Shown here: positions 21,098 to 45,711 of the stretch, piece after piece | How positions within the stretch are numbered: position 1 is the first letter of the stretch | How the letters are laid out: each line of letters begins with the position of its first letter | NCBI RefSeq assembly: GCF_038039215.1 | Contig: NZ_JBBPCL010000001.1 | Span: 2,604,001-2,668,000, forward strand | Direction of reading: 5' to 3' | Length of the DNA: 64,000 nt | Origin: Pseudonocardia sp. T1-2H | Lineage (GTDB): Bacteria; Actinomycetota; Actinomycetes; Mycobacteriales; Pseudonocardiaceae | Position numbers and translations under genes: made by a program | The notes under the pieces: generated by a model | What the model saw: the letters and a program-made list of their open reading frames with translations, nothing else | What the model was told of the DNA's origin: nothing | The model's database searches: none

Positions 21098-21170
21098 GCG
21101 TTCCGCCTTACGGACCAATGTTGTGCCACGATGAGTGATCTGCTTCACGACTGTCAAGGGGAGGCCGGCA

Positions 21171-21986: not shown

Positions 21987-21989
21987 CGG

Positions 21990-22100
21990 GTGCTCCCGGT
22001 GCTCCAGCCGCACCGCCTCCAGGCCGCGATCGGCGTCACCCCCACCGCCTACCGCGCCCCCTTCGGACTCGTCACCGCGGATCTCACCGCCGGTGGCTGA
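21990..22100 (+). pseudogene. AraC-family C-terminal remnant
   Basis: Directly after the iclR stop, the plus frame reads HRLQAAIGVTPTAYRAPFG and ends at a stop at 22100. This matches the last helix of AraC/XylS DNA-binding domains (FxxxxGxTPxxYRxxF). Nothing else of an AraC gene remains, so it is a short deletion remnant. Confidence 0.5.
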
Positions 22101-30882: not shown

Positions 30883-32370
30883 TCAGAGCGTCCGCGCCGC
30901 GCAGCGCGCGTAGGTGTGCCGCCACGGCCGCAACTGCTCGAGGGCCGCCGCCCCGGCGATCACGCCGGGGTCGTCGTAGCGCCTGCCGATGATCTGCAGT
31001 CCCACGGGCAGATCGCCCTCGGCCATGCCGGCCGGCACGGACACCGCGGGATGGCCGCTGTAGTTGATCGGGTACGTCATGCACCACCCGATCAGCGGGT
31101 TCACCTCGACGCCGTTGATGTGGGTGGGGCCGGCGGTGTTGCCGTCGTCCGCGTTGGGCACCGGCAGGCAGGCGAGGGTGGGCGTCAGGAGGAGGTCGTA
31201 GTCGCCGAAGACACCCTGGATCGCATCGTAGACGCCGGTACGCATCTGCTGGTCCCGCAGGACCTCGACCGCGCTCGCCCGGTAGTTCGCCTCGACGTAG
31301 GAGCGGTACTCCGCGGGCAGGTCGTCGGCGTGGTCTGTCAGGAGATCGATCCCCTGGGCCTTGAAGAGCTCGATGACCTCGACCCCGGCCATCATCCGGC
31401 ACCAGAGCTCCGCCAACTCCTGCTGCCCGTAGGGCATCGTCATGGCGATCTCGTCCACGACGGCGCCGGCGTCGCGGAACGCGGCCGCGGCCTGCGCGGT
31501 GACCGTCGCGACCTTCGGGTCGACCGGGTACATGCCGAAGTCGGGGCTGTAGGCGATGCGCTTGCCGGCCAGCGACCTCTCCGGCGTCGCGCAGGCCCCG
31601 ACGTAGTCCACGGTCTCGTCGAGGGCGAACGGATCGCGCGGGTCGTATCCGGTGAGCACCGAGGCGCCGAGGGCGACGTCGGCGACGCTGCGCCCGAGCA
31701 CACCTTCGAACAGGAAGGGGCTGACCCCGGTGAAGGCGTTGGGCCGCGACACGAACGGCACGCGCCCGAACGACGCCTTGTAGCCGACGACGCCGCACCA
31801 GGAGGCGGGGATCCGGATCGACCCGCCGCCGTCGGTGCCCTCCGCCAGGGGCAGCAGGCCGTCCGCCACGGCGGCCGCGGAACCGCCGGAGGATCCTCCC
31901 GAGTTCCGGTCCGTGTCGAACGGGTTGCGCGTGGGCCCGAACAGCGGGTTGTCACACGTGCCGCGGAAACCCATGACCGGCGAGTTGGTCTTGCCGAGCA
32001 CGATCGCTCCCGCGGCCTTCATCCGTTCGGCGTAGGTGCAGTGGTGCTCGGCGATGTTCCCGCGCAGGGCGGGGATGCCGCCGAACGTCGACGGCCAGCC
32101 GGGGTGGAAGTCGAAGAGGTCCTTCAGCGCGGTGGGGACACCGTGCAGCGGCCCCAGCTCCTCCCCGTCCGTCACCGCTTTCTCCGCGCGCGTGGCCGCC
32201 TGCCTGGCCTCGTCGGCCGCGAGGAAGACGAACGCGTTGAGACTGGGGTCGCGCTGCTCGATGCGGTCCAGGAAGTGGTCCACGATCTCCACGGGGGACA
32301 CCTCGCGGCCGCGGACCGCCGCCGCCAGGTTCGTCGCGGACTCGTACGCCATGTCGTCGTCGAGAGGCAT
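30883..32370 (-). CDS. Amidase signature family protein
   Basis: A 495-residue amidase with the Ser-cisSer-Lys triad visible: K83 (TALKDLFDF), S161 (SGGSSGGSAAA) and S184 (GTDGGGSIRIPAS). It hydrolyses amide bonds of small carboxamides or ring-opened lactams; members of the family include 2-aminomuconate-type deaminases. It is followed upstream on the same strand by a RidA-like protein (33156-32407) and an MBL-fold hydrolase (34015-33203), probably one operon. The context suggests release of ammonia or amine from a ring-cleavage product. Confidence 0.9.
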   Translation of the reverse strand: MPLDDDMAYESATNLAAAVRGREVSPVEIVDHFLDRIEQRDPSLNAFVFLAADEARQAATRAEKAVTDGEELGPLHGVPTALKDLFDFHPGWPSTFGGIPALRGNIAEHHCTYAERMKAAGAIVLGKTNSPVMGFRGTCDNPLFGPTRNPFDTDRNSGGSSGGSAAAVADGLLPLAEGTDGGGSIRIPASWCGVVGYKASFGRVPFVSRPNAFTGVSPFLFEGVLGRSVADVALGASVLTGYDPRDPFALDETVDYVGACATPERSLAGKRIAYSPDFGMYPVDPKVATVTAQAAAAFRDAGAVVDEIAMTMPYGQQELAELWCRMMAGVEVIELFKAQGIDLLTDHADDLPAEYRSYVEANYRASAVEVLRDQQMRTGVYDAIQGVFGDYDLLLTPTLACLPVPNADDGNTAGPTHINGVEVNPLIGWCMTYPINYSGHPAVSVPAGMAEGDLPVGLQIIGRRYDDPGVIAGAAALEQLRPWRHTYARCAARTL

Positions 32371-32406
32371 GGGACTCCTTCGGTGGGTGGGACGCGGGGG
32401 TGTGGA

Positions 32407-33156
32407 TCAGAGCGCGCGCCACCCGCTCACGCGGCGCAGGTCCATCTCGAACTCGACCTCGACGACCGGCGGCCTGGTCAACCAGCGGAGGAATCCGTGA
32501 CGGCCGACCGCCGGCAGCCGGTCGAGGAGCATCTCCTCCAGGCCGGGGATCTCGTGAGCGGTGTAGACGTCCACGAGCGTGGGGGACTCCGCGTCCTTGC
32601 CCAGCCCGGCCAGCCGGGCCCGCATCTCGTCGACGACGTAGCCGGCCTTCTTCGCCAGGCCGGCTTCGGACACGTCACCGCGCGCGACGATCGCGTCGGG
32701 ATCGAGGCCGTCGATCTCGCCGCCGCCCGCCACGACGAAGTCGACGCCCCCGGCGCCGGCCGACCTCCGGACGAGAAATGCCGACAGCAGCACGGGTTCT
32801 CGCGGCGCGGACCGGACGGGGACGACATTGGTCCGAGCGATCGGGTTCACGCCGTCTTCGAGCAGCCCGCGCTCCGCGAGGAGTTGCCGGTAGGTCTCGT
32901 TGAACTCGTCGAACGCCCCGAACGCGAACGGTGCCGGGGACCTCAGTTCGATACCGACCAGCGCGCTCGGCGGCAGGCCTCGCTCGGCGCACTCCTCGTC
33001 GAGACGAGCGAACCCGTCGACGACCGGGGGCGGGGAGTCGAACCGCACCCCGATGATCTCGTGACCCGGCTCGGCGGCCACCCCGGAGGAGTACGGGGCG
33101 ATGGCGGGCAGGTACCGGTAGGTCCCGGTGCTGTGCTGCGACGCGGCGTACGGCAT
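32407..33156 (-). CDS. RidA-like family protein (probable enamine/imine deaminase type)
   Basis: A 249-residue protein. Residues ~15-130 show RidA/YjgF-like features (YLPAIAPYSSGVAAEPGHE, PFAFGAFDEFNETYRQLLAE, VNPIARTNVVPV). The C-terminal half is unlike ordinary ~130-residue RidA proteins and is not recognised. RidA proteins hydrolyse enamines and imines; longer relatives occur in amino-aromatic degradation. It lies 36 nt upstream of the amidase and 46 nt downstream of the MBL-fold gene, so the three likely act in one pathway. The assignment rests on motif resemblance. Confidence 0.6.
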   Translation of the reverse strand: MPYAASQHSTGTYRYLPAIAPYSSGVAAEPGHEIIGVRFDSPPPVVDGFARLDEECAERGLPPSALVGIELRSPAPFAFGAFDEFNETYRQLLAERGLLEDGVNPIARTNVVPVRSAPREPVLLSAFLVRRSAGAGGVDFVVAGGGEIDGLDPDAIVARGDVSEAGLAKKAGYVVDEMRARLAGLGKDAESPTLVDVYTAHEIPGLEEMLLDRLPAVGRHGFLRWLTRPPVVEVEFEMDLRRVSGWRAL

Positions 33157-33202
33157 GAGCGGGTACTCCAGGAGGATCGGGCCGGCGCGGCGGGGGTGCG
33201 GC

Positions 33203-34015
33203 TCAGTCGAAGTACTTGGCCTGGGCCTGCAGCTCCTCGAGCACGGTCGCGTCGTGGCCGTAGACCATCGTGGCGTCGTAGCGCTTCTGGATCTGCTGGG
33301 TCCACCGGAAGCTCTCCCACCAGGCGTGCGAGTCGCGACCGAGCCAGCCCTGGGGCAGGCCCTGCTCGAAGAGGTCGCGCACGTGGAACAGGTCGCTGGT
33401 CAGCATGAAGTGCCCGGAGTTGCGGGTCTCGACCTGCATGGTCATCAGGCCGGGGGTGTGGCCGGGCATGTGCCGCAGGGTGATGCCCTCGAACAGCTCG
33501 GTCTCGTCGCGGTGGATGGGCTGCCAGTTCAGCTCCCAGTGGAGGTCGCCGGGGACGTAGGCGCCGATGTCCTCCTTGGTCGCGACCGCGTAGTAGTGCT
33601 CCTTGATCTCCTTCGCGTGGGCGTAGATCGGGATGTTCCTGCCCTTGAAGTGCTCCAGCCCGCCGGCGTGGTCGAGGTGCAGGTGCCCCATCACGACGGC
33701 CTGGATGTCGTCGATGCCGTACCCGGCGGCCTCGAGGGCCTTGTCGAGGTGGTGCTCCTCCTCGTAGACGTTGACGGGGAAGGCTTCCCAGGCGGGCGCG
33801 GGCCAGTCCTCCTTGGCGTTCTGTGCGCAGCCGGTCTCGAAGAGGATCGGGCCTGCCTGGGGGTGTTCGATCACGGCGGCGATGACGGCGACCCGGCGGC
33901 GCTCGTAGTGCGGGTGCGGGTCGGACTGCACCGCCGCGTTGCATCCGCGGATGAAGAAGCCGTCGTCGGTGTCGATCCGGCCGAGGTCGAGCAGGGACAA
34001 CTTCGTTCCGGCCAT
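33203..34015 (-). CDS. MBL-fold hydrolase, N-acyl homoserine lactonase-like
   Basis: A 270-residue metallo-beta-lactamase-fold enzyme. The dinuclear zinc motif is HLHLDH (H111, H113, D115, H116 in VMGHLHLDHAGG), with further ligand candidates in MPGHTPGLM and LTSDLFH. AiiA-type lactonases share this pattern; in this setting it more likely opens a lactone or lactam made by the LLM oxygenase than quenches signals. ATG 34015 is chosen for GGAAGAGG upstream. Divergent from the GntR gene, separated by an AT-rich promoter. Confidence 0.88.
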   Translation of the reverse strand: MAGTKLSLLDLGRIDTDDGFFIRGCNAAVQSDPHPHYERRRVAVIAAVIEHPQAGPILFETGCAQNAKEDWPAPAWEAFPVNVYEEEHHLDKALEAAGYGIDDIQAVVMGHLHLDHAGGLEHFKGRNIPIYAHAKEIKEHYYAVATKEDIGAYVPGDLHWELNWQPIHRDETELFEGITLRHMPGHTPGLMTMQVETRNSGHFMLTSDLFHVRDLFEQGLPQGWLGRDSHAWWESFRWTQQIQKRYDATMVYGHDATVLEELQAQAKYFD

Positions 34016-34142
34016 GGGGTGCCTCTTCCGTTCGACGCGGTGGTGATCCCACGGCCTCGAGGTCCGCACCCACCGGACGAGCTCCGCACGCGAGATCCGA
34101 GGGCCCACATCGTCGACCGTGACGACACAGGAATGTCTAAAC

Positions 34143-34148
34143 TATAAT
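34143..34148 (+). promoter_or_regulatory. TATAAT -10 element upstream of the GntR gene
   Basis: A consensus TATAAT lies in a short AT-rich island (about 34130-34155) in otherwise very GC-rich DNA, 60 nt upstream of the GntR gene. A -35 with a convincing match was not found. The spacer is shared with the divergent MBL operon. Confidence 0.45.
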
Positions 34149-34205
34149 TTCTAACGCGTCAATGGCGACCAGCAGAAAGGGACATCCGCCGGATTCGAGT
34201 GGAAG

Positions 34206-34883
34206 GTGTGCCCGGTGAGGACGGACGCGGTGCAGCCGGTGTCGGCGGGGCTCGGCCGGGATCTGGTCGGGCTCATCCGCTCCCTCATCCTGACCGGCGC
34301 CATCGCCCCGGGCGAGAAGATCCTGCCCAAGGAGATCCAGGAACGGTTCGGCGTCTCCCACATCCCGGTCCGGGAGGCACTGCGCGCGCTGGAGGCCGAG
34401 GGACTGGTCATCACCGTCCCGCGTCGAGGCACGAGCGCCGCGCAGGTCTCGCTCGGCGAGCTCCGCGAGGTCTACGCCATGCGACGGCTGCTCGAACCAC
34501 CGCTCATGGCCCGGGCGGCGCAGCTGCGCAGCGCGGAAGCGGTGGCCGCGGCACAGACGGCGCGGCGGGGACTCGCCGCCGAGTCCGCTGCCGACCTCGA
34601 CGCGTTCCTGGCCCGGCACCGGGAGTTCCACTGGTTGCTCGTCCGACCGGCGGTAGAGGCGGTCGGCCGTCGGGTCCTCGAACAACTGTGGGTGATCTCC
34701 GAGCGCTACGTGCGGATGAGCGTGGCCGCCCACCAGGCCGACGTGAAGGCGGCCCACGACCACGACACCCTGCTCGGGGCGTTCGTGTCCGGAGACGCCG
34801 ATCTCGCGGCGCGCGAGACCGTGCGCCACCTCGACCTCGTCGAATCCACGATCGTCGAGGCGCTGACGCCCGGCCTCGCGTGA
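34206..34883 (+). CDS. GntR/FadR-type transcriptional regulator
   Basis: A 225-residue GntR regulator of the FCD (FadR C-terminal) type. The winged helix has LIRSLILTGAIAPGEKIL, then IQERFGVSHIPVREALRALE and AEGLVITVPRRGT. The effector domain has EFHWLLVRP and the late His of the metal site in ARETVRHLDLVE. Start GTG 34206 (or GTG 34215). It is divergent from the MBL/RidA/amidase operon, which it most likely controls in response to a pathway acid. Confidence 0.88.
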   Translation: MCPVRTDAVQPVSAGLGRDLVGLIRSLILTGAIAPGEKILPKEIQERFGVSHIPVREALRALEAEGLVITVPRRGTSAAQVSLGELREVYAMRRLLEPPLMARAAQLRSAEAVAAAQTARRGLAAESAADLDAFLARHREFHWLLVRPAVEAVGRRVLEQLWVISERYVRMSVAAHQADVKAAHDHDTLLGAFVSGDADLAARETVRHLDLVESTIVEALTPGLA

Positions 34884-34955
34884 GGCGCCTCGTCGTCGGT
34901 GTGGTCGACGACGGTGGACGGCAGGCGCCGTGGCGGGGGAGCAAGCGCGCCGCCG

Positions 34956-36704
34956 TCAGAAGGCGGTGTTGTCGAGGTCGATCCCCGCCGCCTGCAGCTT
35001 CCGGTAGAGCGTGGAGCGGGAGATGCCCAGGAGCAGGGCGGCGTCCCGCTTGTTGCCGCCGGTCTCGGCCAGTGCCTCGAGAATGGCGTGCACCTCGGCG
35101 CGCTCGAAGCGGGTCAGGTTGCTCCGGTGCGCCGCGCGGCGGATCTCCGGCGGCAGGTCGGCGAGCACGGCGGCGGTCCCGGTCGCGGTGTCGAGCATGC
35201 GGGTGACGGCTGAACGGAGCTCGCCGACGTTGCCCGGCCAGGCCAGACGCATGAGGAGCTGAGTCACCTCGGGCGCCACCCGCCGCGGGGCGGCGAAGGC
35301 CGCGACGAGGGCGGGCACGTCGCGGAGCCGGTTGCGCAGTGGCGGCAGCCGAACCTGGTCGGCGTCGATCCCGGGCAGCACCGCGTCCTCCCAGGAGGCG
35401 GAGCTGGTGAACGTCGCGGTACACCGCCAGCCACGGGCCGCGGCCGCGTCGAGGAGCGCGGCGAGCCGGCGCCGGGCGGAGGGATCGAGCAGGTCGAGGT
35501 GCTGGAGGAGGAGCCCGGCCGGTGGACCGTCCAGGACGGCCCGAAGGTCGTCGAACCAGGCGTGCAGGCCCTGCACCTCGACGGTGGCCGCGTCGCGGAC
35601 GATCGTCACCTCCCCGCGCTCGCGCAGCAGCGCCCGGGCCACGGCCGCCTTCCCGACACCGGACTCGCCGCAGAGCACCAGGCTCCGCTCGGCGAGCGCG
35701 GTCCGGGCCGCGCGGCAGGCCCAGAGGAACGCCCGGTCCGAGCCGGCCAGCCCGGCCGGGGCGGTGACCGGCGCAGCGGCACGGGAGGCACCCGGCTGTT
35801 CCGTCGCCGGCCGGACCTCGACGAGCGCGCCGATCACCTGGTCGCCGTCGTGCAGCCGCATCGTGCGGGTCCGGGCGGCCCGCCCGTCGGGCAGTGGCAG
35901 CTCGTTCTCCACGATCCCGTCACCGCAGCACCCTTCGAGAACCCGGGCGACGTGGTCCCACAACAACGGTTGCTCGACGCCGTCGAGGAGCCGCGCGGCC
36001 TGCGGGTTGGTCATCTGGATGCGGTCGTTGAGCACCAGGATCCCGGCGTGCGAGCGCCTGTCCCCGGAGACGAAGTGGCTGAGCAGCGCGCGCTCCTGCA
36101 CGGAGTGCTGCTCGAACAACCGCTGCTCGATGCACCGTGCCGTCTGCTCGGCCAGCACGGTGACCAGGGCGTTGTCCCGGTCCGCCGCGCAGGTGATGTC
36201 GAGGATGCCCATCGGTCGCCGGATCACCGGGTCCATGATCGGCACACCGACGCAGGTGAACTGGACGAGCTGTTCGGCGTAGTGCTCGTGGCCGTCGATC
36301 CGGACCGTGCGCCCCAGTTCGACGGCGGTGCCCACGCCGTTCGTCCCCACCGCGTCCTCGGCGAAGACGAATCCCGGGGTGATGTTGTGGGTGTCCAGCG
36401 CATGCAGCAACCGCTGTTCGTGCACCCGACGGTCGAGGATCCGGGCGTCGGTGTCGGTGACCAGGAAGCTGACGCCGAGCTCGCCGAGCCGAGCGTTGAT
36501 GGTGTCGAGGACCGGGCCGGCGGCACGCAGCAGCCGCGACTCGGGGTTGACGTCCGGCCGGTAGGGCGGGGCGAGCGTCTCGGTGGCGACCGCCCAGCTC
36601 GAGCAGCGCTTCCAGGACGAGGAGATCTCGTCGCGGACGCGCGCCGGGGCCGACCCGGAGGACAGGAAGCGTTCACGTTCGCGGGCCAGCACGTCGTCGA
36701 CCAT
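34956..36704 (-). CDS. AcoR-type (GAF-Fis) transcriptional activator
   Basis: A 582-residue activator of the AcoR/MimR class. N-terminal GAF sensor (SFLVTDTDARILDRRVHEQR, FAEDAVGTNGVGTAVELG), a PAS-like middle (ILVLNDRIQMTNPQAARLLD), a degenerate AAA-type ATPase (LCGESGVGKAAVARALL as Walker A, LAWPGNVGELRSAV) and a C-terminal Fis helix-turn-helix (ETGGNKRDAALLLGISRSTL with YRKLQAAGI). The GAFTGA loop that contacts sigma-54 is absent, as in other actinobacterial members, so it must activate differently. ATG 36704 has GAGAGGAG upstream. It is divergent from the LLM operon and is the probable reader of the GTGTCC-N7-GGACAC sites. Confidence 0.88.
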   Translation of the reverse strand: MVDDVLARERERFLSSGSAPARVRDEISSSWKRCSSWAVATETLAPPYRPDVNPESRLLRAAGPVLDTINARLGELGVSFLVTDTDARILDRRVHEQRLLHALDTHNITPGFVFAEDAVGTNGVGTAVELGRTVRIDGHEHYAEQLVQFTCVGVPIMDPVIRRPMGILDITCAADRDNALVTVLAEQTARCIEQRLFEQHSVQERALLSHFVSGDRRSHAGILVLNDRIQMTNPQAARLLDGVEQPLLWDHVARVLEGCCGDGIVENELPLPDGRAARTRTMRLHDGDQVIGALVEVRPATEQPGASRAAAPVTAPAGLAGSDRAFLWACRAARTALAERSLVLCGESGVGKAAVARALLRERGEVTIVRDAATVEVQGLHAWFDDLRAVLDGPPAGLLLQHLDLLDPSARRRLAALLDAAAARGWRCTATFTSSASWEDAVLPGIDADQVRLPPLRNRLRDVPALVAAFAAPRRVAPEVTQLLMRLAWPGNVGELRSAVTRMLDTATGTAAVLADLPPEIRRAAHRSNLTRFERAEVHAILEALAETGGNKRDAALLLGISRSTLYRKLQAAGIDLDNTAF

Positions 36705-36786
36705 GTTCGCTCCTCTCGGGACGGCGTCGGCCCGATCAGGCACTGCGATGGTGCGGATCCACGGTAATCCGCTGATCCAGAACGGT

Positions 36787-36805
36787 GTGTCCCAGATCGG
36801 GACAC
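36787..36805. promoter_or_regulatory. GTGTCC-N7-GGACAC inverted repeat, activator site 1
   Basis: A 19-nt site with perfect 7-nt arms (GTGTCCC / GGGACAC, 5-nt spacer) between the AcoR-type gene and the LLM operon. The same outer pattern recurs at 42592-42610. A second repeat, TGAGACAC-GTGTCACA (one mismatch), lies at 36866-36881. Paired inverted repeats upstream of the promoter are typical for Fis-type activators; binding by the adjacent regulator is inferred. Confidence 0.6.
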
Positions 36806-36865
36806 GTCCGGGGTCCGACCGCGCCCGCGCGGGGCTCTGCCCGACGTCGAAGCCGTGCTTCAGAT

Positions 36866-36881
36866 TGAGACACGTGTCACA
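36866..36881. promoter_or_regulatory. Second inverted repeat upstream of the LLM monooxygenase operon
   Basis: TGAGACAC-GTGTCACA, an 8+8 inverted repeat with a single mismatch, 53 nt before GTG 36934. It shares the GACAC/GTGTC half-sites with the 36787 repeat in the opposite arrangement and may be a lower-affinity or overlapping site of the same regulator. Confidence 0.45.
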
Positions 36882-36933
36882 GCCGACTTGCGGGTCGAAT
36901 CACGGGACCAACGTCGTCCCGAGGAGCGAACCG

Positions 36934-38175
36934 GTGAAATTCCAGCTGTTCACGTTGCCGACGATCCCGGCGACCTTGGAGGAACGGGCGGCGAAGCGCC
37001 CGATCGGCCGGGACAACGACGCCTTCCAGGCGATGATCGCCGAGGTGCGGGAGCTGGCGATCATGGCCGACGAGGTCGGCTTCGACGTCTTCTCCACCAC
37101 CGAGCACCACTTCCACTCGGAGGGGTTCGAGGCGTCGGTCCAGCCGATGATGCTCTACGCCGACCTGGCCGCGCGGACCAAGAACATCAGCTTCGCACCG
37201 TTGTCACTGGTGCTGCCCGCGAACGATCCGCTGCGCGTCGCCGAGCAGGTGGCCTACCTCGACCACCTCACGGGCGGGCGGGTCTACGGCGGTTACGCAC
37301 GCGGCTACCAGGACCGCTGGGTCAACGTGCTGGGCCAGCACATCCCGGTGAAGGGGACGCCGATGGACGGAGGGGAGGACGACAAGCACAACCGGGCGGT
37401 GCACGAGGAGTACCTGGAGCTGATCTACAAGGCGTGGACCGACGACCTGCTGACCTTCGAGGGGCAGTTCTACCAGGTGCCGCCGAAGGGTGGGATCACA
37501 CGCTGGCCGGCGGCGGACTGGACGAGGCAGTACGGGCACCCGGACGAGCTGGACGAGAACGGCCACATCCGCGGCATCTCGGTGATCCCCAAGCCGCTGC
37601 AGCAGCCGTACCCGAAGGCGTTCCAGCCGTTCTCGGTGTCGGAGTCGACGATGGTGCACACGGCCAAGAACGGGGTGATGCCGATCATCCTGACGGCCGA
37701 GCCGGGGCAGTTCACCCATCTCGCCGAGCTCTACCGGGACTCGGCGGCGGAGGCGGGTCGAGACCTCAAGCTGGGCGAGAGCATCGGCGCCTTCCGAGCC
37801 GTGGCCTTCGGTGAGAACCGTCAGCAGGCGTTGGAGCTGATGGAACGCACGAACTACTACGGTTTCCAGATCTACTTCTCCGGTTTCGGCTTCTGGGAAG
37901 CGCTGCGGCTGCCCGGCGACGAGCAGCAGTGGCCGAAGGGCACGTTGCTGCCGCCGGAGGAGTGGACGATGGACCGCTTCACGAAGACCAAGTACGGGCT
38001 CGCCGGAACGGTCGACGACATCAAACGCGACATCGAGGACCTGGCCACGATCCACGGCAACGGCGGGGAGCTGGAGTGGTTCTCCTGGTTCTTCGACCAG
38101 GGCCTCATGCCGATCGACGAGGCCAAGCGGCAGCTGGAGATCTTCGCCGAGCACATCATCCCCGAGTTCCGCTGA
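36934..38175 (+). CDS. LLM-class flavin-dependent monooxygenase
   Basis: A 413-residue bacterial-luciferase-like monooxygenase, longer than the F420-dependent type. Motifs are DEVGFDVFSTTEHHFHSEGF, SFAPLSLVLPANDPLRVAEQ, VAYLDHLTGGRVYGGYARGY and a C-terminal WFSWFFDQGLMPIDEAKRQL. The start is GTG 36934 with GAGGAG upstream; the frame extends far upstream without support. Such enzymes use FMNH2 from a separate reductase (none seen here) for Baeyer-Villiger-type or ring-opening oxygenation. It is the first gene of an operon with an MBL hydrolase and two amidohydrolases. Confidence 0.9.
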   Translation: MKFQLFTLPTIPATLEERAAKRPIGRDNDAFQAMIAEVRELAIMADEVGFDVFSTTEHHFHSEGFEASVQPMMLYADLAARTKNISFAPLSLVLPANDPLRVAEQVAYLDHLTGGRVYGGYARGYQDRWVNVLGQHIPVKGTPMDGGEDDKHNRAVHEEYLELIYKAWTDDLLTFEGQFYQVPPKGGITRWPAADWTRQYGHPDELDENGHIRGISVIPKPLQQPYPKAFQPFSVSESTMVHTAKNGVMPIILTAEPGQFTHLAELYRDSAAEAGRDLKLGESIGAFRAVAFGENRQQALELMERTNYYGFQIYFSGFGFWEALRLPGDEQQWPKGTLLPPEEWTMDRFTKTKYGLAGTVDDIKRDIEDLATIHGNGGELEWFSWFFDQGLMPIDEAKRQLEIFAEHIIPEFR

Positions 38176-38237
38176 CATCGGCCGGCCCGCCGGCACGGTG
38201 TCGGCGGGCCGTCCCGCACACCTTGATGGAGGAGTCG

Positions 38238-39047
38238 ATGAGCGTCACCCTGCGCGGCGTCAATCTCGGATACATGGGCCTGGACAAGTCCCTGCTGGCG
38301 AACCGGCCCGAGAACGTGGGCAAGGTCTACGAATGCCCGGCGATCGCGTACATCATCGAGACCCCGGACGGGCGGATCCTCTGGGAGACCGGCCTGTCGG
38401 CGCGGTGCTCGGACGAGTGGATGGCCGAGTGGCAGGAGGTCGTCGACCTCGAGGCCGTGACGCCGGAGGCGTGCCTGGAGGCGAGGCTGAAGGAGATGGG
38501 CCTGGGGCCGGACGACTTCCGCTACGTGGTGCAGGGCCATCTGCACACCGACCACGCGGGCGGCCTGCGGCTGTTCGAGGACGCCGGCGTCGAGATCGTC
38601 GTGCACGAGGACGAGTACGCCCACGTGATGTCGATGGAGTCCGACGGCGACTTCTTCGCCCACGTCGACTGGGCGTTCCTCGGCGACAAGAAGCCGACGG
38701 TGGTCTCCGACGGTGGAACCGAGCTCGCCCGGGACGTGCAGCTGATCCACCTGCCGGGCCATACGCCCGGACAGATGGCGATGCAGCTGCAGCTGGAGAA
38801 CACCGGCACCGTGCTGCTGACCTCCGATGCGCTCTACCACCACGAGAACTACGTCGAACCGGGCGGGGAGCCGCAGATCTACTGGGACATCGACAAGTGG
38901 CGGACCTCGCTCGGCACGCTCGGGAAGGTGGCGCGGGACAACGACGCGTGGTTGTTCCCCGGGCACGACGAGACGGGCATCCAGCACTTCGACGGTCGCA
39001 AGGAGCTGAAGGCCATCCGGTTCGAGCAGGGTCACGCCTACGCATGA
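38238..39047 (+). CDS. MBL-fold hydrolase, N-acyl homoserine lactonase-like
   Basis: A 269-residue metallo-beta-lactamase-fold enzyme, a paralogue of the one at 33203. Zinc motif HLHTDH (H101, H103, D105, H106 in VQGHLHTDHAGG), then LPGHTPGQMAMQ and LTSDALYH, and the final ligand region FPGHDETG. ATG 38238 has GGAGG upstream. It follows the LLM monooxygenase by 62 nt; a plausible task is hydrolysis of the lactone or ester the monooxygenase makes. A signal-quenching role cannot be excluded. Confidence 0.9.
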   Translation: MSVTLRGVNLGYMGLDKSLLANRPENVGKVYECPAIAYIIETPDGRILWETGLSARCSDEWMAEWQEVVDLEAVTPEACLEARLKEMGLGPDDFRYVVQGHLHTDHAGGLRLFEDAGVEIVVHEDEYAHVMSMESDGDFFAHVDWAFLGDKKPTVVSDGGTELARDVQLIHLPGHTPGQMAMQLQLENTGTVLLTSDALYHHENYVEPGGEPQIYWDIDKWRTSLGTLGKVARDNDAWLFPGHDETGIQHFDGRKELKAIRFEQGHAYA

Positions 39048-39102
39048 GAACCCGTTCGCGACGGGCGCTCGGTGGCGACGTCGAGGACGACGCGGGGGCG
39101 AG

Positions 39103-40182
39103 ATGAGCACCGGTCGCATCGACTGCGACGTGCACCCCGCCGTCCCCGAGATCTCGGCGCTGTTCCCGTTCCTCTCGCAGCGGTGGGTGGACTACTGCGT
39201 CGAGAGCGGGGTCGAGGGGTTCGAGCCGGCGTCCTATCCGCCCGGGATGCCGCTCTCGGCCCGGCCGGAGACCCGACGCGCGGGGGTGCCGCCGGGGTCG
39301 GACCCGGCTGTGGTGCGCGCGCAGGTTCTCGACCACGGTGGCGCCGGCCGTGCGGTCCTCAACTGCCTCTATGCGGTGCAGGCCCTGCACAACCCGGACT
39401 GGGCCGCGGCCATGGCCCGCGCGGTCAACGACTGGCAGGCGGCGTGCTGGCTGAGTGCGGACCCACGGTTCGTGGCCTCCGTCGTGGTGTCGCCGCAGGA
39501 CCCCCGCGAGGCCGCCGACGAGATCGCCAGGGTCGCGGTGGACAGGCGGTTCGTCCAGGTCATGCTTCTCGCCTCGTCGCAGACGCCGCTGGGGCAGCGG
39601 GCGCACTGGCCGATCTTCGCCGCGGCGGAGGCCGCCGGCCTGCCGGTGGCGATCCACCCGGGGGTCTCCGGTGCCAACCCGCTCTCGGCCGTCGGCTGGC
39701 CCTCCCACTACATCGAGGACTACGCGGGCGCGGCGCTGGCGTTGCAGTCCCAACTGATCAGCCTGGTGGCCGAGGGTGTGTTCCGGGTCCACCCCGGACT
39801 GCGCGTCGTCCTGCTGGAGAGCGGGGTCACCTGGCTGCCGTCGCTGATGTGGCGCTTCGACAAGAACTGGAAGGGGCTGCGCCGGGAGGTCCCCTGGGTG
39901 GATCGGCCGCCGTCGCGCATCATCCGGGACCACGTGCTGCTCAGCGTGGCGCCGTTCGACGGTCCCCCCGACCCGCCGCCGGGCTGGGTCGACCGCTTTC
40001 TCGACCAGCTGGGGTCGACGGACATGCTCGTGTTCGCCAGCGACTACCCGCACTGGCACCACGGCGACGTCGAGCGCGCGCTGCTCCGCCACCTTTCTCC
40101 CGCCGAGCGGGAGCAGGTGCTGCACGGCAACGCCGCCCGGCTCTACCGTCTGGAGAGCGACGAGAGGGAGGCCGCGCCATGA
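39103..40182 (+). CDS. Amidohydrolase-2 (ACMSD-like) family enzyme 1
   Basis: A 359-residue TIM-barrel metal enzyme of the amidohydrolase-related family (ACMSD, gamma-resorcylate decarboxylase). It begins IDCDVHPAVPEISAL, where DVH replaces the usual HxH. Later landmarks are VAIHPGVSGAN, LRVVLLESGVTWLPSLMWR and FASDYPHWHHGD with the metal Asp in SDYPHW. ATG 39103. Its stop overlaps the start of a close paralogue by 4 nt, so the two may form a heteromer or work on successive intermediates. Decarboxylation or C-C/C-N hydrolysis are both possible. Confidence 0.88.
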   Translation: MSTGRIDCDVHPAVPEISALFPFLSQRWVDYCVESGVEGFEPASYPPGMPLSARPETRRAGVPPGSDPAVVRAQVLDHGGAGRAVLNCLYAVQALHNPDWAAAMARAVNDWQAACWLSADPRFVASVVVSPQDPREAADEIARVAVDRRFVQVMLLASSQTPLGQRAHWPIFAAAEAAGLPVAIHPGVSGANPLSAVGWPSHYIEDYAGAALALQSQLISLVAEGVFRVHPGLRVVLLESGVTWLPSLMWRFDKNWKGLRREVPWVDRPPSRIIRDHVLLSVAPFDGPPDPPPGWVDRFLDQLGSTDMLVFASDYPHWHHGDVERALLRHLSPAEREQVLHGNAARLYRLESDEREAAP

Positions 40183-41252
40183 CCCGCATCCTCCAACGCC
40201 TGATCGACTGCGACGTGCACAACGCGGTTCCTTCGGACACGGCCCTGTCGCCGTACCTGTCCGCCCGCTGGCGGCGCCACCTGGAACTGGTGGGCTCACG
40301 GACCTACTCGCCGTTCACCAAGGGCTACGCGTACCCCAAGGCGGCGAAGTTCGCCAGCAGGCACGATGCCTGGCCGCTGTCGGGGGCGCTGCCCGGCTCC
40401 GACCTCGAGTTCATGCGCGAGCAGCTGCTCGACGCCTACCCGATCGACTACGCGGTGCTCAACTGCCTGTACCGGGCCGCCGAGCAACGCAACGACCTCT
40501 ACGGCGCGGCTCTGGCGCGGGCGGTCAACGAGTGGCAGGTCGAGCACTGGCTGGAGCGGGATCCCCGGCTGCGGGCCTCGATCACGGTGCCGTTCGAGTC
40601 CCCGGCGCTGGCCGCGGCCGAGATCGACCGCGCCGCCGCCCACCCCGGCTTCGTCCAGGTCCTGCTGTTCCCCCGGACCCGGCAGCCGTTGGGCCGCCGT
40701 CACTACTGGCCGATCTACGAGGCGGCGGGCCGGGCCGGGCTGCCGGTGGGGATCCACGCGGCCTCGACGACGCCGGGGCCGATCACGCCGGCGGGATGGC
40801 CCTCCTACTACATCGAGGACCACACGGCCCTGTCCGTGGCGTTCCAGGCCCAGGTGATCAGTTTGATCATGGAAGGCGCGTTCGACCGCTTCCCGGACCT
40901 GCGGGTCGTGCTGCTGGAGGGTGGGTTCGCCTGGATCCCGTCGATGAGGTGGCGTCTCGACGCCCTGTACGCGCGCCTGCACGAGGAGGTGCCCGACCTC
41001 GAGCACCCTCCCTCGCACTACCTGCGCCACCGGATCCGCAGCACCACCCAGCCGATGGAGGAGCCCGAGCACCCGGCCGATCTGGTGCCGCTGCTCCAGG
41101 AGATCGGCGAGGACGTCCTGATGTTCTCCACCGACTATCCGCACTGGGACTTCGACAACCCGCACCGGGCGTTCCAGACCACAATCCCGCCGGACCTGCG
41201 GACGCGGATCCTGAACGACAACGCGCGCGAGTACTACCGGTTCACGCCGTGA
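40179..41252 (+). CDS. Amidohydrolase-2 (ACMSD-like) family enzyme 2
   Basis: A 357-residue paralogue of the preceding protein: LIDCDVHNAVPSDTALSPYL at the start, LPVGIHAASTTPGP in the middle, then LRVVLLEGGFAWIPSMRWRL and MFSTDYPHWDFDNP. ATG 40179 overlaps the previous stop (ATGA). The two share overall layout but differ in the loop after DVH, so substrate specificity probably differs. It is the last gene of the LLM operon. Confidence 0.88.
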   Translation: MTRILQRLIDCDVHNAVPSDTALSPYLSARWRRHLELVGSRTYSPFTKGYAYPKAAKFASRHDAWPLSGALPGSDLEFMREQLLDAYPIDYAVLNCLYRAAEQRNDLYGAALARAVNEWQVEHWLERDPRLRASITVPFESPALAAAEIDRAAAHPGFVQVLLFPRTRQPLGRRHYWPIYEAAGRAGLPVGIHAASTTPGPITPAGWPSYYIEDHTALSVAFQAQVISLIMEGAFDRFPDLRVVLLEGGFAWIPSMRWRLDALYARLHEEVPDLEHPPSHYLRHRIRSTTQPMEEPEHPADLVPLLQEIGEDVLMFSTDYPHWDFDNPHRAFQTTIPPDLRTRILNDNAREYYRFTP

Positions 41253-41348
41253 CCCCTCGAGTTCCTGCGTTGCCGCGGCACCGGTTGCGATCCCGGGCTC
41301 GGGAGCGGCGGCACCGCCAGACCTACCCGGTCACCCGCGACGGGACGG

Positions 41349-42487
41349 TCACCGGACGAAGCCGGGGCCCTCGATCACCGGATGCGCGGCGAGGAAGTCC
41401 TCGTCCACCTCGACTCCGAGACCCGGCCCCTCCGGCGGGAGCACCGTCCCGTCCGGACGCACGGTGATCGCCGGCGACACCAGCTCGTCACGGAACAGGT
41501 TGTCGTGGCTGACGTCGGCCTCGAAGTACCCGGCGTTCTCGGTCGCGGCGAGGAGGTGCACCGTGGCGGCCATGTTCAGCCCGGTCGAGGCGGTGTGCGG
41601 GTTCAGCGGCAGTTTCCAGGCCGAGGCCAGCGCGGCGATCCGGTGCACCTCCGTCAGCCCGCCGGACTTGGAGAGGTCGGGCTGGAGCACCGAGACGGCG
41701 CCGTCCTCGATCAGCCGGTGGAACTCGAAGCGCGTGTAGTGGTTCTCGCCCGCCGCGAGCGGCACTCCGGCGAACCGGGCCGCCGCCGCGTAGCTGCGGT
41801 GGTCGTGCGGCGGGAACGGCTCCTCCAACCAGCCGACGTGCTGATCGCGGAGCCCTGGCGCGATCCGCCGCACGTCCTCGAGGTCGTAGGCGGTGTTGGC
41901 GTCGGCGAGGATCTCCAGTGCCGGGAACGCCGAGCGGACCGCGGAGATCCGCGCGAGGTCGTCCACGGGGTTGTCGCCGATCCGGAGCTTGACCGCTCGA
42001 TAGCCGCGCTCGACCAGCGGCCACACCTCCTCGACCAGGAAGCCCGGCTCGCTCCAGCCCAGCGCGACCCCGCCGGCATAGGCCGCGACCGGCCGCGACG
42101 CCCCGCCGAGCAGCCGGTACACCGGCCACCCCACGGCCTTCCCGCGGATGTCCCACAACGCCATGTCGATGCCGCTCATCGCGATCGCCGCGGCGGCGCC
42201 GAGCCCGTGGCTCGCGAGCTGCGCGGTGTAGATCGTCGTCCAGACGCCGACCGTGTCGGCGGCGTCGAGCCCGACCACCAGGTCCTTGAGCGTGCTGTTG
42301 ACGAGGTGCCCCACGGTCCCGGGGAGCGGGCGTGGTGCGACTCGCCCCAGCCGACCAGGCCGTCCGTCGTCCGCACCCGGACCACGACGGCGTCACGCTT
42401 GACCACCTTGCCGATCCCCAGCCGCTCACCGGCCCGCTCCGACACCGGGAACGAGGTGGGGAAGGCGGTGACGTCCGCGATGTGCAT
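41349..42487 (-). pseudogene. Mandelate racemase/muconate lactonizing enzyme (enolase superfamily), frameshifted
   Basis: About 379 residues when repaired. It starts at ATG 42487 (MHIADVTAFPTSFPVSER) and reads VVRVRTTDGLVGWGESHHA before the frame breaks near 42325. The second frame then gives GHLVNSTLKDLVVGLDAADT to the stop at 41349. Metal ligands are in ILADANTAYD, VGWLEEPFPP and AAGENHYTRF; NPHTASTGLN follows. One missing G at CCCCGGGACCGTG explains the break, and the remaining sequence is clean, so a sequencing error is likely. It would epimerise or dehydrate a hydroxy or amino acid of the pathway. Confidence 0.8.
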
Positions 42488-42591
42488 TTTCCGGGTCCTT
42501 CCGAGAGGCGGCCGGTGGGCCCGATCGGGCGCCGGAACAGTCGCCGACGTGGATAGCGGGAATCTCCCGGGTTCGCCAGTGGACGAGGCAC

Positions 42592-42610
42592 GTGTCCTGC
42601 GATCGGACAC
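42592..42610. promoter_or_regulatory. GTGTCC-N7-GGACAC inverted repeat, activator site 2
   Basis: A 19-nt site GTGTCC-TGCGATC-GGACAC in the divergent promoter of the enolase-superfamily gene (minus) and the second LLM gene (plus). It has the same arms and spacing as the site at 36787-36805. The recurrence 5.8 kb apart, both times in a divergent promoter, supports one regulon under the AcoR-type activator (inferred). Confidence 0.6.
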
Positions 42611-42673
42611 TCGTCGACGTCACATCTGGTTACCGTCGTAAGGCATTCCCGATTCTGCCTGCCGGAGGTCTCC

Positions 42674-43648
42674 GTGAAGATTTCATGCGCGTTCGCCACG
42701 TCGCTGGACAGTCACGAGCACGCCCGAATCGCCGAGACGCTGGGTTATGAGCGTGCCTTCTTCTACGACTCGCCCGCTCTCTACCCCGATGTGTGGGTTC
42801 AGCTCTGCCGCGCCGCGGAGCGCACCGAGCGGATCGTCCTGGGCCCCGGCGTCCTGATTCCGAGCCTGCGCCATCCGATGGTCACCGCCTCGGCCATCGC
42901 GACGTTGGCCTCGATCGCGGGCGCGGAACGCACGATGGTCGGGATCGGCTCCGGCTTCACCGGGCGGCTTTCCATGGGCAAGCGGCCCATCCCGTGGGCC
43001 AAGGTCAAGGAGTACGCGCTCGTCGTGGCGGCGCTGCTGCGGGGCGAGGAGGTCGAGTGGGACGGCGGGATCATGCAGATGCTGGCCCCGACCGACCGGT
43101 ACGCCCCGGCACGGCCCATCGACGTCCCGTGGGTGGTCGCGGCCAACGGGCCGAAGGGCTACGGGGTGACCCGTGAGCTCGGCGCCGAGGTGCTGACCAT
43201 CCTGGTGCCGAACCCGGACTTCGCCTCGAGCGTCATCCTGGACTTCGGGACCGTGCTCGAGGATGGGGAGGACCCCGGCTCGGCCCGCGTGATCGACGCG
43301 GCCGGACACGGGCTGAGCGTCGTCCTGCACTGGGCCGTCGAGCACGGCGTCATCGACGAGCTGATGCCGGAGCGGGGACAGGAGTGGGCCGCCGCCTACG
43401 ACGACGTGCCGAGGGAGAAGCGGCACCTGGCCCTGCACGACCGGCACCTGGTGGCCGTGAACGAGCGCGACCGTCCCTTCGTCACCGGCGAGCTGATGGT
43501 CAAGGGCGGGCTGGCGCTGACGCCGTCGGAGTGGCGGGACAAGATCGCCAAGCTGGAAGCAGCCGGGAGCACCGAGATCGCCTATCAGCCCGCAGGCCCG
43601 GACATCCCGCGCGAGCTCGAGGCCTTCGCGGCCGCCGTCCGGGCCTAG
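42674..43648 (+). CDS. LLM-class oxidoreductase (F420-dependent reductase-like)
   Basis: A 324-residue luciferase-like TIM-barrel protein of the shorter, F420-dependent type. Motifs are AETLGYERAFFYDSPALYPD, ERIVLGPGVLIPSLRHPMVT, GAERTMVGIGSGFTGRLSMG and the end STEIAYQPAGPDIPRELEAF. The start is GTG 42674 after GGAGG. It could reduce an activated double bond or ring of the substrate. It is divergent from the enolase-superfamily gene and shares its predicted activator site. Confidence 0.88.
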   Translation: MKISCAFATSLDSHEHARIAETLGYERAFFYDSPALYPDVWVQLCRAAERTERIVLGPGVLIPSLRHPMVTASAIATLASIAGAERTMVGIGSGFTGRLSMGKRPIPWAKVKEYALVVAALLRGEEVEWDGGIMQMLAPTDRYAPARPIDVPWVVAANGPKGYGVTRELGAEVLTILVPNPDFASSVILDFGTVLEDGEDPGSARVIDAAGHGLSVVLHWAVEHGVIDELMPERGQEWAAAYDDVPREKRHLALHDRHLVAVNERDRPFVTGELMVKGGLALTPSEWRDKIAKLEAAGSTEIAYQPAGPDIPRELEAFAAAVRA

Positions 43649-43990
43649 GCGAACGGGGATGGGGGCGTGACTGCGACGCAGTCCGACCAGGTGGCCGGCG
43701 GCGACTCCGGTGAGGGCCGTCGGACCGGAGCCCGGTTCCGCAGCGGGCGCGACGCCCCCGCCGACGGCGAGCTCGTCGCGTGACTGCTGCCGGTGGGACG
43801 TGCCGACCCCGCCCCCGTCCGTGCACGCTCCCACCCCGGCACCGTTCGCGACGGAGTGAGGCGGACCTCCGGTCGTCCTGGAGTTCTCGACCCGGGTGCT
43901 CCCGCGCGACGTTCGAATTCTCCCTGCCGGCAGGACGCGCGGCTATAGTCCGTACTCCGGTGGCGCGGGTGGCCGGGCTCGGAGGCGGAC
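43649..43990. other. Gene-free spacer
   Basis: About 340 bases after the second LLM gene. No coding sequence or RNA recognised. CTATAGTCC near 43943 may be part of a -10 for the small membrane protein at 43991. Confidence 0.3.
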
Positions 43991-44191
43991 ATGAGGTTCG
44001 GCGGGGTACTCGTCGTCGTCTGGCTGATCATCGGCGCCGTGGCGTCCTATCAGCGCGGATACTTCTCGGGGGACGCCGATGTCAATTGCGCCGAGTTCGG
44101 CACCGTACTGCTCACCGTTGTCGCCGGCCCGTTGAACTATCTGGGCGTGAATCCTCGGATCGACTGCACGCTTCCCCGGCCCTCACAATGA
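43991..44191 (+). CDS. Small membrane protein
   Basis: A 66-residue protein: an N-terminal hydrophobic helix (MRFGGVLVVVWLIIGAVASY), a short loop with QRGYFSGDADVNCAEFG, a second hydrophobic segment (TVLLTVVAGPLNYLGV) and a C-terminal Cys (DCTLP). ATG 43991 has GGAGG upstream. Two conserved-looking cysteines outside the helices might form a disulfide. It resembles uncharacterised actinobacterial small membrane proteins; function unknown. Confidence 0.7.
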   Translation: MRFGGVLVVVWLIIGAVASYQRGYFSGDADVNCAEFGTVLLTVVAGPLNYLGVNPRIDCTLPRPSQ

Positions 44192-44331
44192 GACGTGAGA
44201 ACGGTCGCGGCCGCGAGAGCGGCTCGGACGCGGTGCCGGCGATCTGCTGACCCGAGCCCTCTCGCTGGATAGCCTCGGCGCGTTCGCCCACCACCGGACG
44301 CCGCGACCCACCTCCGAGCCCGGGAGATTCT

Positions 44332-45711
44332 GTGTCCGCATCCCCGCACAGTGCGCCGCCGCGCCGCTCGATCGTCAAGATCGTCGCCGCGAGCATGCTC
44401 GGCACGACCGTGGAGTGGTACGACTTCTTCCTCTACGGCGTCGCCGCGGCGATCGTCCTGCCCGCGGTCTTCTTCCCGGCGGCCGATCCGGTCGCGGGGA
44501 CCCTGCTGTCGTTCGGCACCTTCGCGATCGGGTTCGTGGCCCGTCCGCTCGGCGGCCTCGTGTTCGGCCACTACGGCGACAAGATCGGCCGTAAGAGACT
44601 CCTCGTCCTGAGCCTGCTCATGATGGGCATCTCCACGTTCGCCATCGGCCTGCTGCCGGGATACAACACCATCGGCGTCGCGGCCCCGGTGCTGCTCGTG
44701 GTGCTCCGGCTCGTCCAGGGCTTCGCCCTCGGCGGCGAATGGGGCGGCGCGGTGCTGATCGTCTCCGAGCACGGTGAGGCGTCGCGGCGCGGGTTCTGGG
44801 CGAGCTGGCCACAGGCCGGGGCCCCGGCCGGGCAACTGCTGGCGAACGGGTTGCTGGCGTTGCTGGCCGTCTTCCAGAGCGAGGAGACCTTCCAGGCCTG
44901 GGGCTGGCGGATCCCGTTCCTGCTCTCCGCCGTCCTGGTGCTGATCGGTCTCTACGTCCGGCTCTCCGTCGAGGAGTCCCCGGTGTTCCGGGCCGCCCAG
45001 GCCCGCGCCGCCGAGCGCGAGGCCGCGGACACCGCCGCCGGGATCAGGACCACCATGCCGATCGTCGACGTGTTCCGCCGCTACCCGCGGGAGGTGGTCA
45101 CCGCGATGGGCGCCCGCTTCGCCGAGAACGTCTCCTACTACATCTTCACCATCGTCATCTCCACCTACATGAAGGAACGGTTCGGGCTGCCGTCGTCGTT
45201 CGTGCTCGGCGCGGTGCTGATCGGCGCCGCGTTCCACGTCCTGACCATCCCGATGTGGGGCGCGGTGTCGGACCGGATCGGGCGCAAGCCCGTCTACCTC
45301 TTCGGCGCGGTCGGTGTCGGCGCGTGGGCGTTCGCGTTCTTCGCCCTTCTCGACACCCGCAACTTCGCGCTCGCCGCCGTCGCCGTCGTCGTCGGGCTGT
45401 TCTTCCACGGGGCGATGTACGGGCCGCAGGCGGCGTTCCTGTCCGAGCTCTTCGGCACCCGGGTCCGCTACTCCGGGGTCTCGATCGGCTACCAGCTCGC
45501 CTCGGTCGTCGCGGGCGGGCTCGCTCCGATCATCTCCGTCGCACTCCTGGCCGCCTTCGGGACCGGCTACGCGATCGCCTGCTACGTCGCCGCCAGCTCG
45601 CTGCTGACGATCCTGGCGGTGGCGACGTACCGCGAGACCCGCGACCGCGACCTGGCCGCCGACGACGGGGAGACGGCCGACCCGTCGTCGACCGCGTCGA
45701 CCGAGGCCTGA
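44332..45711 (+). CDS. MHS-family MFS transporter (metabolite:H+ symporter)
   Basis: A 459-residue, 12-helix major facilitator of the metabolite:proton symporter group (ShiA/ProP/KgtP type). Signatures are GTTVEWYDFFLYGVAAAIVL, FAIGFVARPLGGLVFGHYGD, KIGRKRLLVLSL and VLRLVQGFALGGEWGGAVLI. The start is GTG 44332. Substrates of the family are small organic acids, betaines or aromatic acids. It lies at the end of the catabolic island and may import its growth substrate; no operator of the 19-nt type was seen upstream. Confidence 0.9.
   Translation: MSASPHSAPPRRSIVKIVAASMLGTTVEWYDFFLYGVAAAIVLPAVFFPAADPVAGTLLSFGTFAIGFVARPLGGLVFGHYGDKIGRKRLLVLSLLMMGISTFAIGLLPGYNTIGVAAPVLLVVLRLVQGFALGGEWGGAVLIVSEHGEASRRGFWASWPQAGAPAGQLLANGLLALLAVFQSEETFQAWGWRIPFLLSAVLVLIGLYVRLSVEESPVFRAAQARAAEREAADTAAGIRTTMPIVDVFRRYPREVVTAMGARFAENVSYYIFTIVISTYMKERFGLPSSFVLGAVLIGAAFHVLTIPMWGAVSDRIGRKPVYLFGAVGVGAWAFAFFALLDTRNFALAAVAVVVGLFFHGAMYGPQAAFLSELFGTRVRYSGVSIGYQLASVVAGGLAPIISVALLAAFGTGYAIACYVAASSLLTILAVATYRETRDRDLAADDGETADPSSTASTEA

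Follow-up and report, generated by a model that had tools for sequence, protein, structure and literature searches.

How many pathways does the catabolic island at positions 30883-45711 of the stretch analysed here encode, and with what kind of reaction does its oxidative chemistry begin? The stretch (the window, 64,000 nucleotides) comes from Pseudonocardia sp. T1-2H and covers C1:2604001-2668000 of its genome (G000; 6,998,239 bases, 3 contigs); below, genomes carry G numbers and records of related loci L numbers. An initial annotation proposed a single pathway for an N-heterocyclic or amino-aromatic compound, in which oxygenation by a luciferase-like flavin monooxygenase (LLM) and ring opening by a metallo-beta-lactamase-fold (MBL) hydrolase were accompanied by nitrogen removal through an amidase and a RidA-like protein, and by decarboxylation through two amidohydrolases. 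Our analysis favours, with somewhat more confidence than doubt, a different reading of the gene content, in which the interval would be a mosaic of modules. Its core would be an O2-dependent operon, LLM1-MBL2-AH1-AH2 (AH1 and AH2 being the amidohydrolase-type proteins), together with an enolase-superfamily gene and a second LLM gene (LLM2) under an AcoR/DhaR-like activator. Judged from these genes, the island probably oxidises its compound via C-H hydroxylation.

Resemblance of AH1 and AH2 to AibH1H2

A comparison of AH2 with all PDB chains gave AibH2 (6m1w chain B) as the best match, with an E value of 3e-92 and 312.9 bits, and AH1 was matched best by AibH1 (6m1w_A, E 1.5e-76). AH2 also matched 8sm7, 8sm9, 8sm6 and 8sm8 (E 2.7e-84 to 1.4e-65). 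Carboxyvanillate and resorcylate decarboxylases matched AH2 weakly; the best decarboxylase chain, that of 5-carboxyvanillate decarboxylase, scored 65.5 bits, 247 bits below AibH2, and the best ACMSD chain 33.7 bits (E 2.1e-7).

The metal site of AibH2 is conserved in AH2. The six metal ligands of AibH2 (numbered as in the available part of PMC7782822) correspond to D12, H14, H193, E247, D319 and H322 of AH2, and the second-sphere residue D342 (from that of PMC10401708) corresponds to D324. These seven columns read D,H,H,E,D,H,D in all 24 distinct AH2 copies compared, the window copy included; they come from 24 of 26 AH2 loci, with the G594 locus and the second G608 locus left out. None of the AH1 copies from these 24 loci has Asp in the last column (mostly His, with Gln in L089-L093 and Val in L095), four have Tyr as the third ligand (L089, L090, L092 and L093) and the L095 copy shows N,H,G,E,G,H,V; in AH1 of L090, columns one and two are uncovered. 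The site columns therefore fit a catalytic AH2 with an auxiliary AH1, as in AibH1H2.

Decarboxylases of the ACMSD type carry an H-x-H metal motif, with His replacing the Glu ligand. AH1 and AH2 carry D-x-H and Glu. The ACMSD-like, decarboxylating identity given to the two proteins in the initial annotation is not supported by this site or by the AibH-like best matches. AH1 and AH2 instead resemble the subunit pair of a dinuclear Mn/Fe C-H monooxygenase of the AibH1H2 type.

According to the available parts of the reports, the heterotetramer AibH1H2 catalyses the hydroxylation of alpha-aminoisobutyrate in Rhodococcus (PMC7782822), requires manganese and holds its Mn/Fe site in AibH2 (PMC10401708). 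The AibH1H2-AibG-AibF system of Rhodococcus wratislaviensis (PMC7782822; PMC10401708) resembles the window locus in its tandem PF04909 pair and in the six ligands and second-sphere Asp of the catalytic subunit, and relatives of AH1-AH2 likewise have a small Rieske protein next to them. In contrast to that system, genes for a Rieske protein and a reductase are absent from the window, and LLM and MBL genes stand in the operon instead. The other aib genes in the accessible part of PMC7782822 (Table 1 there: D-methylserine (D-MeSer) dehydrogenase, aldehyde dehydrogenase, serine hydroxymethyltransferase (SHMT)-like protein and alanine dehydrogenase) had no counterpart among the scanned window proteins. 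The class has been named amidohydrolase-related dinuclear oxygenases (ARO; available part of PMC10811679). Orphan members such as SfbO are similar to AH2 in that it matches the 8sm6-8sm9 structures; they were found through an adjacent Rieske gene, whereas the oxygenase pair of the window has none. The accessible part of PMC10401708 counts 555 proteins with all six ligands, with an adjacent Rieske protein co-occurring at 90%; such a neighbour is thus usual rather than defining for the class.

Distribution of the Rieske ferredoxin

AH2 was searched for in 390 genomes of the family at E 1e-95 or better, and scoring covered the top five candidates in each genome. Several of the assemblies are drafts, and second loci with weaker matches may have escaped detection in other genomes. 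Matches occurred at 27 places in 21 genomes, one of which (G657) is an AH1 beside its AH2, leaving 26 loci. AH1 adjoins AH2 in every one of them, and a Rieske gene follows AH2 in 21. The five Rieske-less loci are that of the window and one each in G606, G608, G568 and G562. A second AH2 locus at the same cut-off was found only in these five genomes, and every second locus has a Rieske gene. With relatedness ignored, so exact an overlap (five from 21) has a chance of 1 in 20,349; G000 and G606 are near kin, and on the AH2 tree the Rieske-less label has to change at least three times, possibly through one gain and two losses. In G000, the second locus (L052, C1 at ~4.33 Mb) holds AH1', AH2', a Rieske protein and an Nramp-family permease. 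Since the Rieske-less loci occur only in genomes with a Rieske-bearing second locus, sharing of the ferredoxin is suggested, and on this pattern the second-locus ferredoxin probably serves the AH1-AH2 pair of the window in trans.

The Nramp-family permease gene stands beside the Rieske gene at 7884-9702 of L052 and also in L086, L087 and L096. The metal motifs of Nramp proteins are DPGN and MPH; the L052-type permease shows GAGD and MYP at these positions. Metal import by this permease is not claimed, and the permeases of second-type loci may carry a cargo other than metal.

Activator and palindromic sites

The regulator described in the initial annotation as AcoR-type looks like an enhancer-binding protein of the Fis type. 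Its best NCBIfam match, DhaR (NF008485), reached 130.5 bits, far under the cut-off of 551, and Pfam at E<=1e-3 gave no Sigma54_activat match in 34956-36704, where the AAA region is weak. From these domains, the activator may work without sigma-54.

A palindrome, GTGTC-N9-GACAC, was found by inspection and is put forward as a hypothesis. Two exact copies lie in the window, against a mean of 0.18 in 100 shuffles, three of which had two or more. The longer form, GTGTCC-N7-GGACAC, occurs exactly three times in the 7.0-Mb genome: two copies are here (36787 and 42592), and the third, in the end of an aminotransferase-like gene, was taken as chance. With two of the three in this place, the LLM1 operon, the enolase gene and LLM2 are therefore probably one regulon. 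When one mismatch is allowed, the genome has 31 sites of the longer form versus 3 for the reversed pattern, and the palindrome type is therefore common beyond the island.

Eight exact copies of GTGTC-N9-GACAC are present in the 765,415 bases of 37 related records, some of which overlap, versus none in 38 other records (297,297 bases), which are partly rpoB genes and form an unmatched control. Up to one mismatch, the counts are 54 and 5, many of the 54 being inside genes. The eight exact sites include two orthologous pairs shared by the window and the sister strain L031, and all are intergenic with the LLM1 start at 36934. Sites precede LLM1 and, in L032 and L038, RibBA; others lie in the gaps separating the enolase gene from LLM2 and, in L032, an acyl-CoA dehydrogenase from an esterase-like gene, and one adjoins an LLM paralogue in L045. 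The promoter of the amidase-CnbZ-MBL1-GntR unit (cassette A) and the region before the transporter show no copy, even when one mismatch is tolerated. At C1:846042, a one-mismatch site lies between a 55% identical activator and a gene for a Baeyer-Villiger-type monooxygenase (BVMO; 64-71%), with an MBL2 fragment alongside. In the available part of PMC8784404, no operator is named for this type of activator. We infer that the AcoR/DhaR-like activator probably binds GTGTC-N9-GACAC.

In record L163 (G000:C1:838001-856000), positions 6155-10035 represent a decayed sister locus, with the BVMO gene apparently in two frames.

Gene content of the interval

Features were assigned by GC-frame gene calling, Pfam (reporting E<=1e-3) and NCBIfam cut-offs (Table 1). 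Pfam confirmed the catabolic island of the initial annotation, with its two LLM enzymes, two lactonase-like MBL hydrolases, amidase, transporter of the MHS (metabolite:H+ symporter) type and GntR regulator. As also stated there, no usual ring-cleavage dioxygenase is present among the interval proteins scanned by Pfam, some small open reading frames being outside the scan. The LLM1 start was taken as GTG at 36934, and MBL2 starts with ATG at 38226 or at 38238. LLM1, MBL2, AH1 and AH2 lie on the same strand and the reading frames of AH1 and AH2 overlap by four bases; by this arrangement, the four genes look like a single operon.

Table 1. Features of the catabolic island and its border, in window coordinates.
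Feature	Position	Strand	Basis
Amidase, cassette A	30883..32370	-	PF01425 E 2.5e-94
CnbZ-family protein, cassette A	32407..33156	-	NF049982 242.8 bits, cut-off 220
MBL1, lactonase-like MBL-fold hydrolase, cassette A	33203..34015	-	PF00753 E 9.1e-16; HLHLDH motif
GntR/FCD regulator, divergent from cassette A	34206..34883	+	PF00392, PF07729
AcoR/DhaR-like activator	34956..36704	-	HTH_8, AAA_lid_14
Operator-like palindrome GTGTCCCAGATCGGGACAC, between activator and LLM1	36787..36805	.	candidate
LLM1, luciferase-like flavin monooxygenase	36934..38175	+	PF00296 E 7.1e-32
MBL2, lactonase-like MBL-fold hydrolase	38226..39047	+	PF00753 E 4.7e-20; HLHTDH motif
AH1, AibH1-like auxiliary subunit, Amidohydro_2	39103..40182	+	6m1w_A E 1.5e-76
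AH2, AibH2-like catalytic subunit, Amidohydro_2	40179..41252	+	6m1w_B E 3e-92
Enolase-superfamily gene	41349..~42487	-	PF13378 E 1e-61; frame broken near 42320
Operator-like palindrome GTGTCCTGCGATCGGACAC, between enolase gene and LLM2	42592..42610	.	candidate
LLM2, second luciferase-like enzyme	42674..43648	+	PF00296 E 5.5e-27
BVMO start remnant (gene whole in L031)	43667..43716	+	alignment vs L031
MHS-type metabolite:H+ symporter	44332..45711	+	PF00083; TIGR00883 439.6 bits, cut-off 443.45
GntR/FCD regulator 2	45736..46443	-	PF07729, PF00392

The acyl-homoserine lactone (AHL)-lactonase labels AhlS, AiiA and AttM were rejected for the MBL hydrolases, MBL1 scoring 133.2 bits against a cut-off of 475 (AhlS) and MBL2 113.9 against 375 (AiiA). 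Elsewhere in the window, 18232-24023 holds a further apparent catabolic cluster, with an acyl-CoA dehydrogenase, a MaoC-type hydratase, a CoA-transferase III, an IclR regulator and an acetyl-CoA hydrolase-type gene.

LLM and MBL genes in related loci

Relatives of LLM1 at 63-100% identity are present in eight contig records, six from Pseudonocardia, one from a Pseudonocardiaceae metagenome-assembled genome (MAG) and one from a Streptosporangiales MAG. In L031, the entire set is colinear at 94-100%, and a BVMO gene (16743-18380) stands between LLM2 and the transporter. L034 and L035 carry LLM1, the activator, MBL2, AH1 and AH2, with no cassette A in the stretch covered; a Rieske gene directly follows AH2 in L035 and in the genome of L034 (seen in L039), and L034 additionally has dodecin, thiamine pyrophosphate (TPP)-enzyme, EthD, NIPSNAP, enolase and RibBA genes. 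L032, L037 and L038 lack the oxygenase pair; they have a related activator together with RibBA and flavin reductase genes, and L037 also carries an MBL2 relative at 50%. L036 has a 40% identical activator and no oxygenase pair, and L033 has neither, its stretch ending 2 kb past LLM1.

Other genes of the core recur near the oxygenase pair as well. The LLM2 gene directly follows the oxygenase genes at 90-91% identity in L078, L079 and L080, and upstream in L078 lie two acyl-CoA dehydrogenases, two CoA-transferases and an enoyl-CoA hydratase. Close MBL2 relatives (81-97%) stand beside the pair only in L031/L044, L034 and L035; L094 has a 30% match some 6 kb from it. An MHS-type transporter is near the pair in L031 (98%) and in L086, L087 and L094 (37-44%).

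Flavin reductase genes occur near LLM1 relatives (L032, L037 and L038) and near LLM2 in L080. By analogy with the RibBA and flavin-reductase companions of its relatives, LLM1 would be dependent on flavin mononucleotide (FMN). It shares PF00296 with FMN-dependent two-component LLM monooxygenases, and it is the relatives of LLM1 that have such companions. It differs from them in that no NCBIfam subfamily cut-off was reached, so that NtaA/DmoA, SfnG, Rv2161c and the other subfamilies were rejected as labels, and in that its best PDB match is 7bip with an E value of only 1.8e-20. The structure model of LLM1 is poor (mean predicted local distance difference test, pLDDT, 50.9; alignment of 7 rows).

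TPP-enzyme genes were also seen near oxygenase or LLM1 loci, in L034 and, by eye, in L052 and L086. In L164 (G000:C1:820001-838000), an LLM gene and a prs-like gene are present at 341-2530 and 9380-17543 as near-identical copies within ~17 kb, with RibBA-, NIPSNAP- and flavin-reductase-like genes between the copies, an apparent local duplication.

Evidence against the oxygenase core and possible erosion of the window copy

Several observations weigh against a working oxygenase core within a mosaic. No PF00355 match was found in the window stretch and no Rieske gene stands beside AH2; the interval likewise holds no Rieske, reductase or flavin reductase gene, and the best counterpart of the L038 flavin reductase in G000 shares only 35% identity with it. 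In L032, L033, L036, L037 and L038, relatives of LLM1 stand where there is no oxygenase pair, and most loci of the pair have no LLM1. As either can be present alone, the two are not obligatorily coupled, and the idea of an obligatory unit was dropped. If one mismatch is tolerated, the palindrome is not in excess in the window, with 2 copies where 3.97 would be expected. A complete split of the island is opposed by the presence of AH2 at >=80% identity in all four family genomes with a close cassette A. Finally, relative to L031, the window is without most of L031 16792-19580, nearly the entire BVMO gene, and one base is missing from its enolase gene (a single gap over 1153 aligned columns).

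The enolase frame break is either a pseudogene or a sequencing error; the superfamily assignment of the initial annotation stands (PF13378, E 1e-61), but the reading frame of the enzyme is broken. The window is also without L031 591-2076, inside the gene of a 603-amino-acid TPP enzyme, of which 28683-29051 is a remnant of the C-terminal part. Because the BVMO gene and most of the TPP-enzyme gene are lost and the enolase gene is frameshifted relative to the sister strain, the window copy may be eroding. These losses, and the lack of a local Rieske gene and of a close flavin reductase, would also be expected of a decaying remnant whose pathway no longer works. Against such decay, the genes of LLM1, MBL2, AH1, AH2, LLM2 and the activator are all undamaged, at 96-100% identity to L031, the palindromes are kept and ferredoxin is possibly supplied in trans. 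We regard a defunct pathway as unlikely, while giving it some weight.

Cassette A and the one-pathway explanations

The RidA-like protein of the initial annotation gave no match to any Pfam family at E<=1e-3, RidA (PF01042) included, and a profile comparison with two RidA proteins yielded a probability of 0.6% (shallow profiles); the RidA label is thus unconfirmed. The protein passes the NF049982 (2-amino-5-chloromuconate deaminase) cut-off, with 242.8 bits versus 220, and is 39% identical to cnbZ of Comamonas CNB-1 (record L116) over 94% of the window protein. Unlike the CNB-1 system, the window has an amidase and an MBL hydrolase alongside, and no aminophenol dioxygenase was seen in the interval. 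The structure model of the CnbZ-family protein is poor (mean pLDDT 41.4; alignment of 2 rows). On this homology, an aminomuconate-type step is plausible for the amidase-CnbZ half, and the nitrogen route first proposed may survive for cassette A alone.

Close CnbZ relatives (89% or more) were found in four of the 390 family genomes (G000, G606, G608 and G562), and G604 and G573 have only distant ones (32-43%). In G562, a GntR-MBL1-CnbZ-amidase unit (L108, 87-91% identity) stands without the other modules, on a different contig from LLM1 and the oxygenase pair; in G608, cassette A is on a 4.4-kb contig (L107, 89-97%). The GntR/FCD regulator travels with the cassette in both L108 and L107. On an rpoB tree of 30 genomes (12 of interest and 18 chosen others), the cassette requires at least three changes. 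More distant relatives of the CnbZ-family protein have RidA, FAH-family and amidase genes as neighbours in L109 and L110 and an annotated amino acid racemase in L098. Because it stands alone in G562 and has no copy of the palindrome, cassette A is taken as separate from the oxygenase half, perhaps acting on an aminomuconate-like compound.

The two halves might nevertheless be separate in place and still serve one pathway, cassette A stripping nitrogen from the compound oxidised by the oxygenase half. In favour of this, all four close-cassette genomes carry the close oxygenase clade, with at least three changes on the rpoB tree. On the other hand, the regulators differ and share no common palindrome, and of the 11 genomes (counting G000) whose AH2 reaches 77% identity, seven have no close cassette; a joint pathway of this kind is unlikely.

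The single N-heterocyclic or amino-aromatic route described at the outset is improbable. It could draw on the same four genomes, on the amidase and on the CnbZ-family protein above its equivalog cut-off, but its amidohydrolases are AibH-like, its nitrogen-handling genes form a separable cassette that stands alone in L108, the oxygenase operon lacks that cassette in L034 and L035, and the cassette promoter has no palindrome. That AH1 and AH2 are metal-dependent decarboxylases or hydrolases, as their common Pfam family PF04909 and the weak carboxyvanillate and resorcylate decarboxylase matches might suggest, is very unlikely, given an AibH2 score 247 bits above any decarboxylase chain, D-x-H and Glu at the AibH2 ligand positions in 24/24 copies and a Rieske gene next to the pair in 21/26 loci.

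Proposed sequence of reactions

For the favoured oxygenase core within a mosaic, AH1-AH2, with AH2 as the catalytic and AH1 as the auxiliary subunit, would hydroxylate an unactivated C-H bond, the electrons coming from a Rieske ferredoxin that the second locus (C1, 4.33 Mb) would supply in trans. LLM1 would then oxygenate the product to an ester or lactone, a step in which the BVMO present in the sister strain may formerly have acted, and MBL2 would open the lactone. This order of reactions and the lactone intermediate are what the gene set most likely implies. As a more specific proposal, which is tentative, an AcoR/DhaR-type regulon may couple a Mn/Fe C-H monooxygenase with subsequent LLM flavin monooxygenases leading to a lactone, and, having no ferredoxin gene at its oxygenase locus, may borrow the ferredoxin of the paralogous locus 1.7 Mb away, a set-up that would have appeared or disappeared three times or more on the AH2 tree.

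Significance for AibH2-like oxygenases

AibH2-like oxygenases are already known and are predicted to be widespread, and few co-occurring genes permit their function to be inferred (both from the available part of PMC10401708). In the literature searched, mainly open access, we found no report of such oxygenase genes sharing an operon with LLM monooxygenase and MBL hydrolase genes, of the palindrome or of the ferredoxin pattern; the available part of PMC7176365 deals with a different monooxygenase. Annotation as amidohydrolase or decarboxylase conceals candidate C-H oxygenases, and a neighbourhood with an LLM enzyme, a lactonase-like hydrolase, an activator and a palindrome narrows the substrate search for such enzymes. 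The ferredoxin pattern provides a direct test case for the sharing of an electron donor between two such enzymes in one cell.

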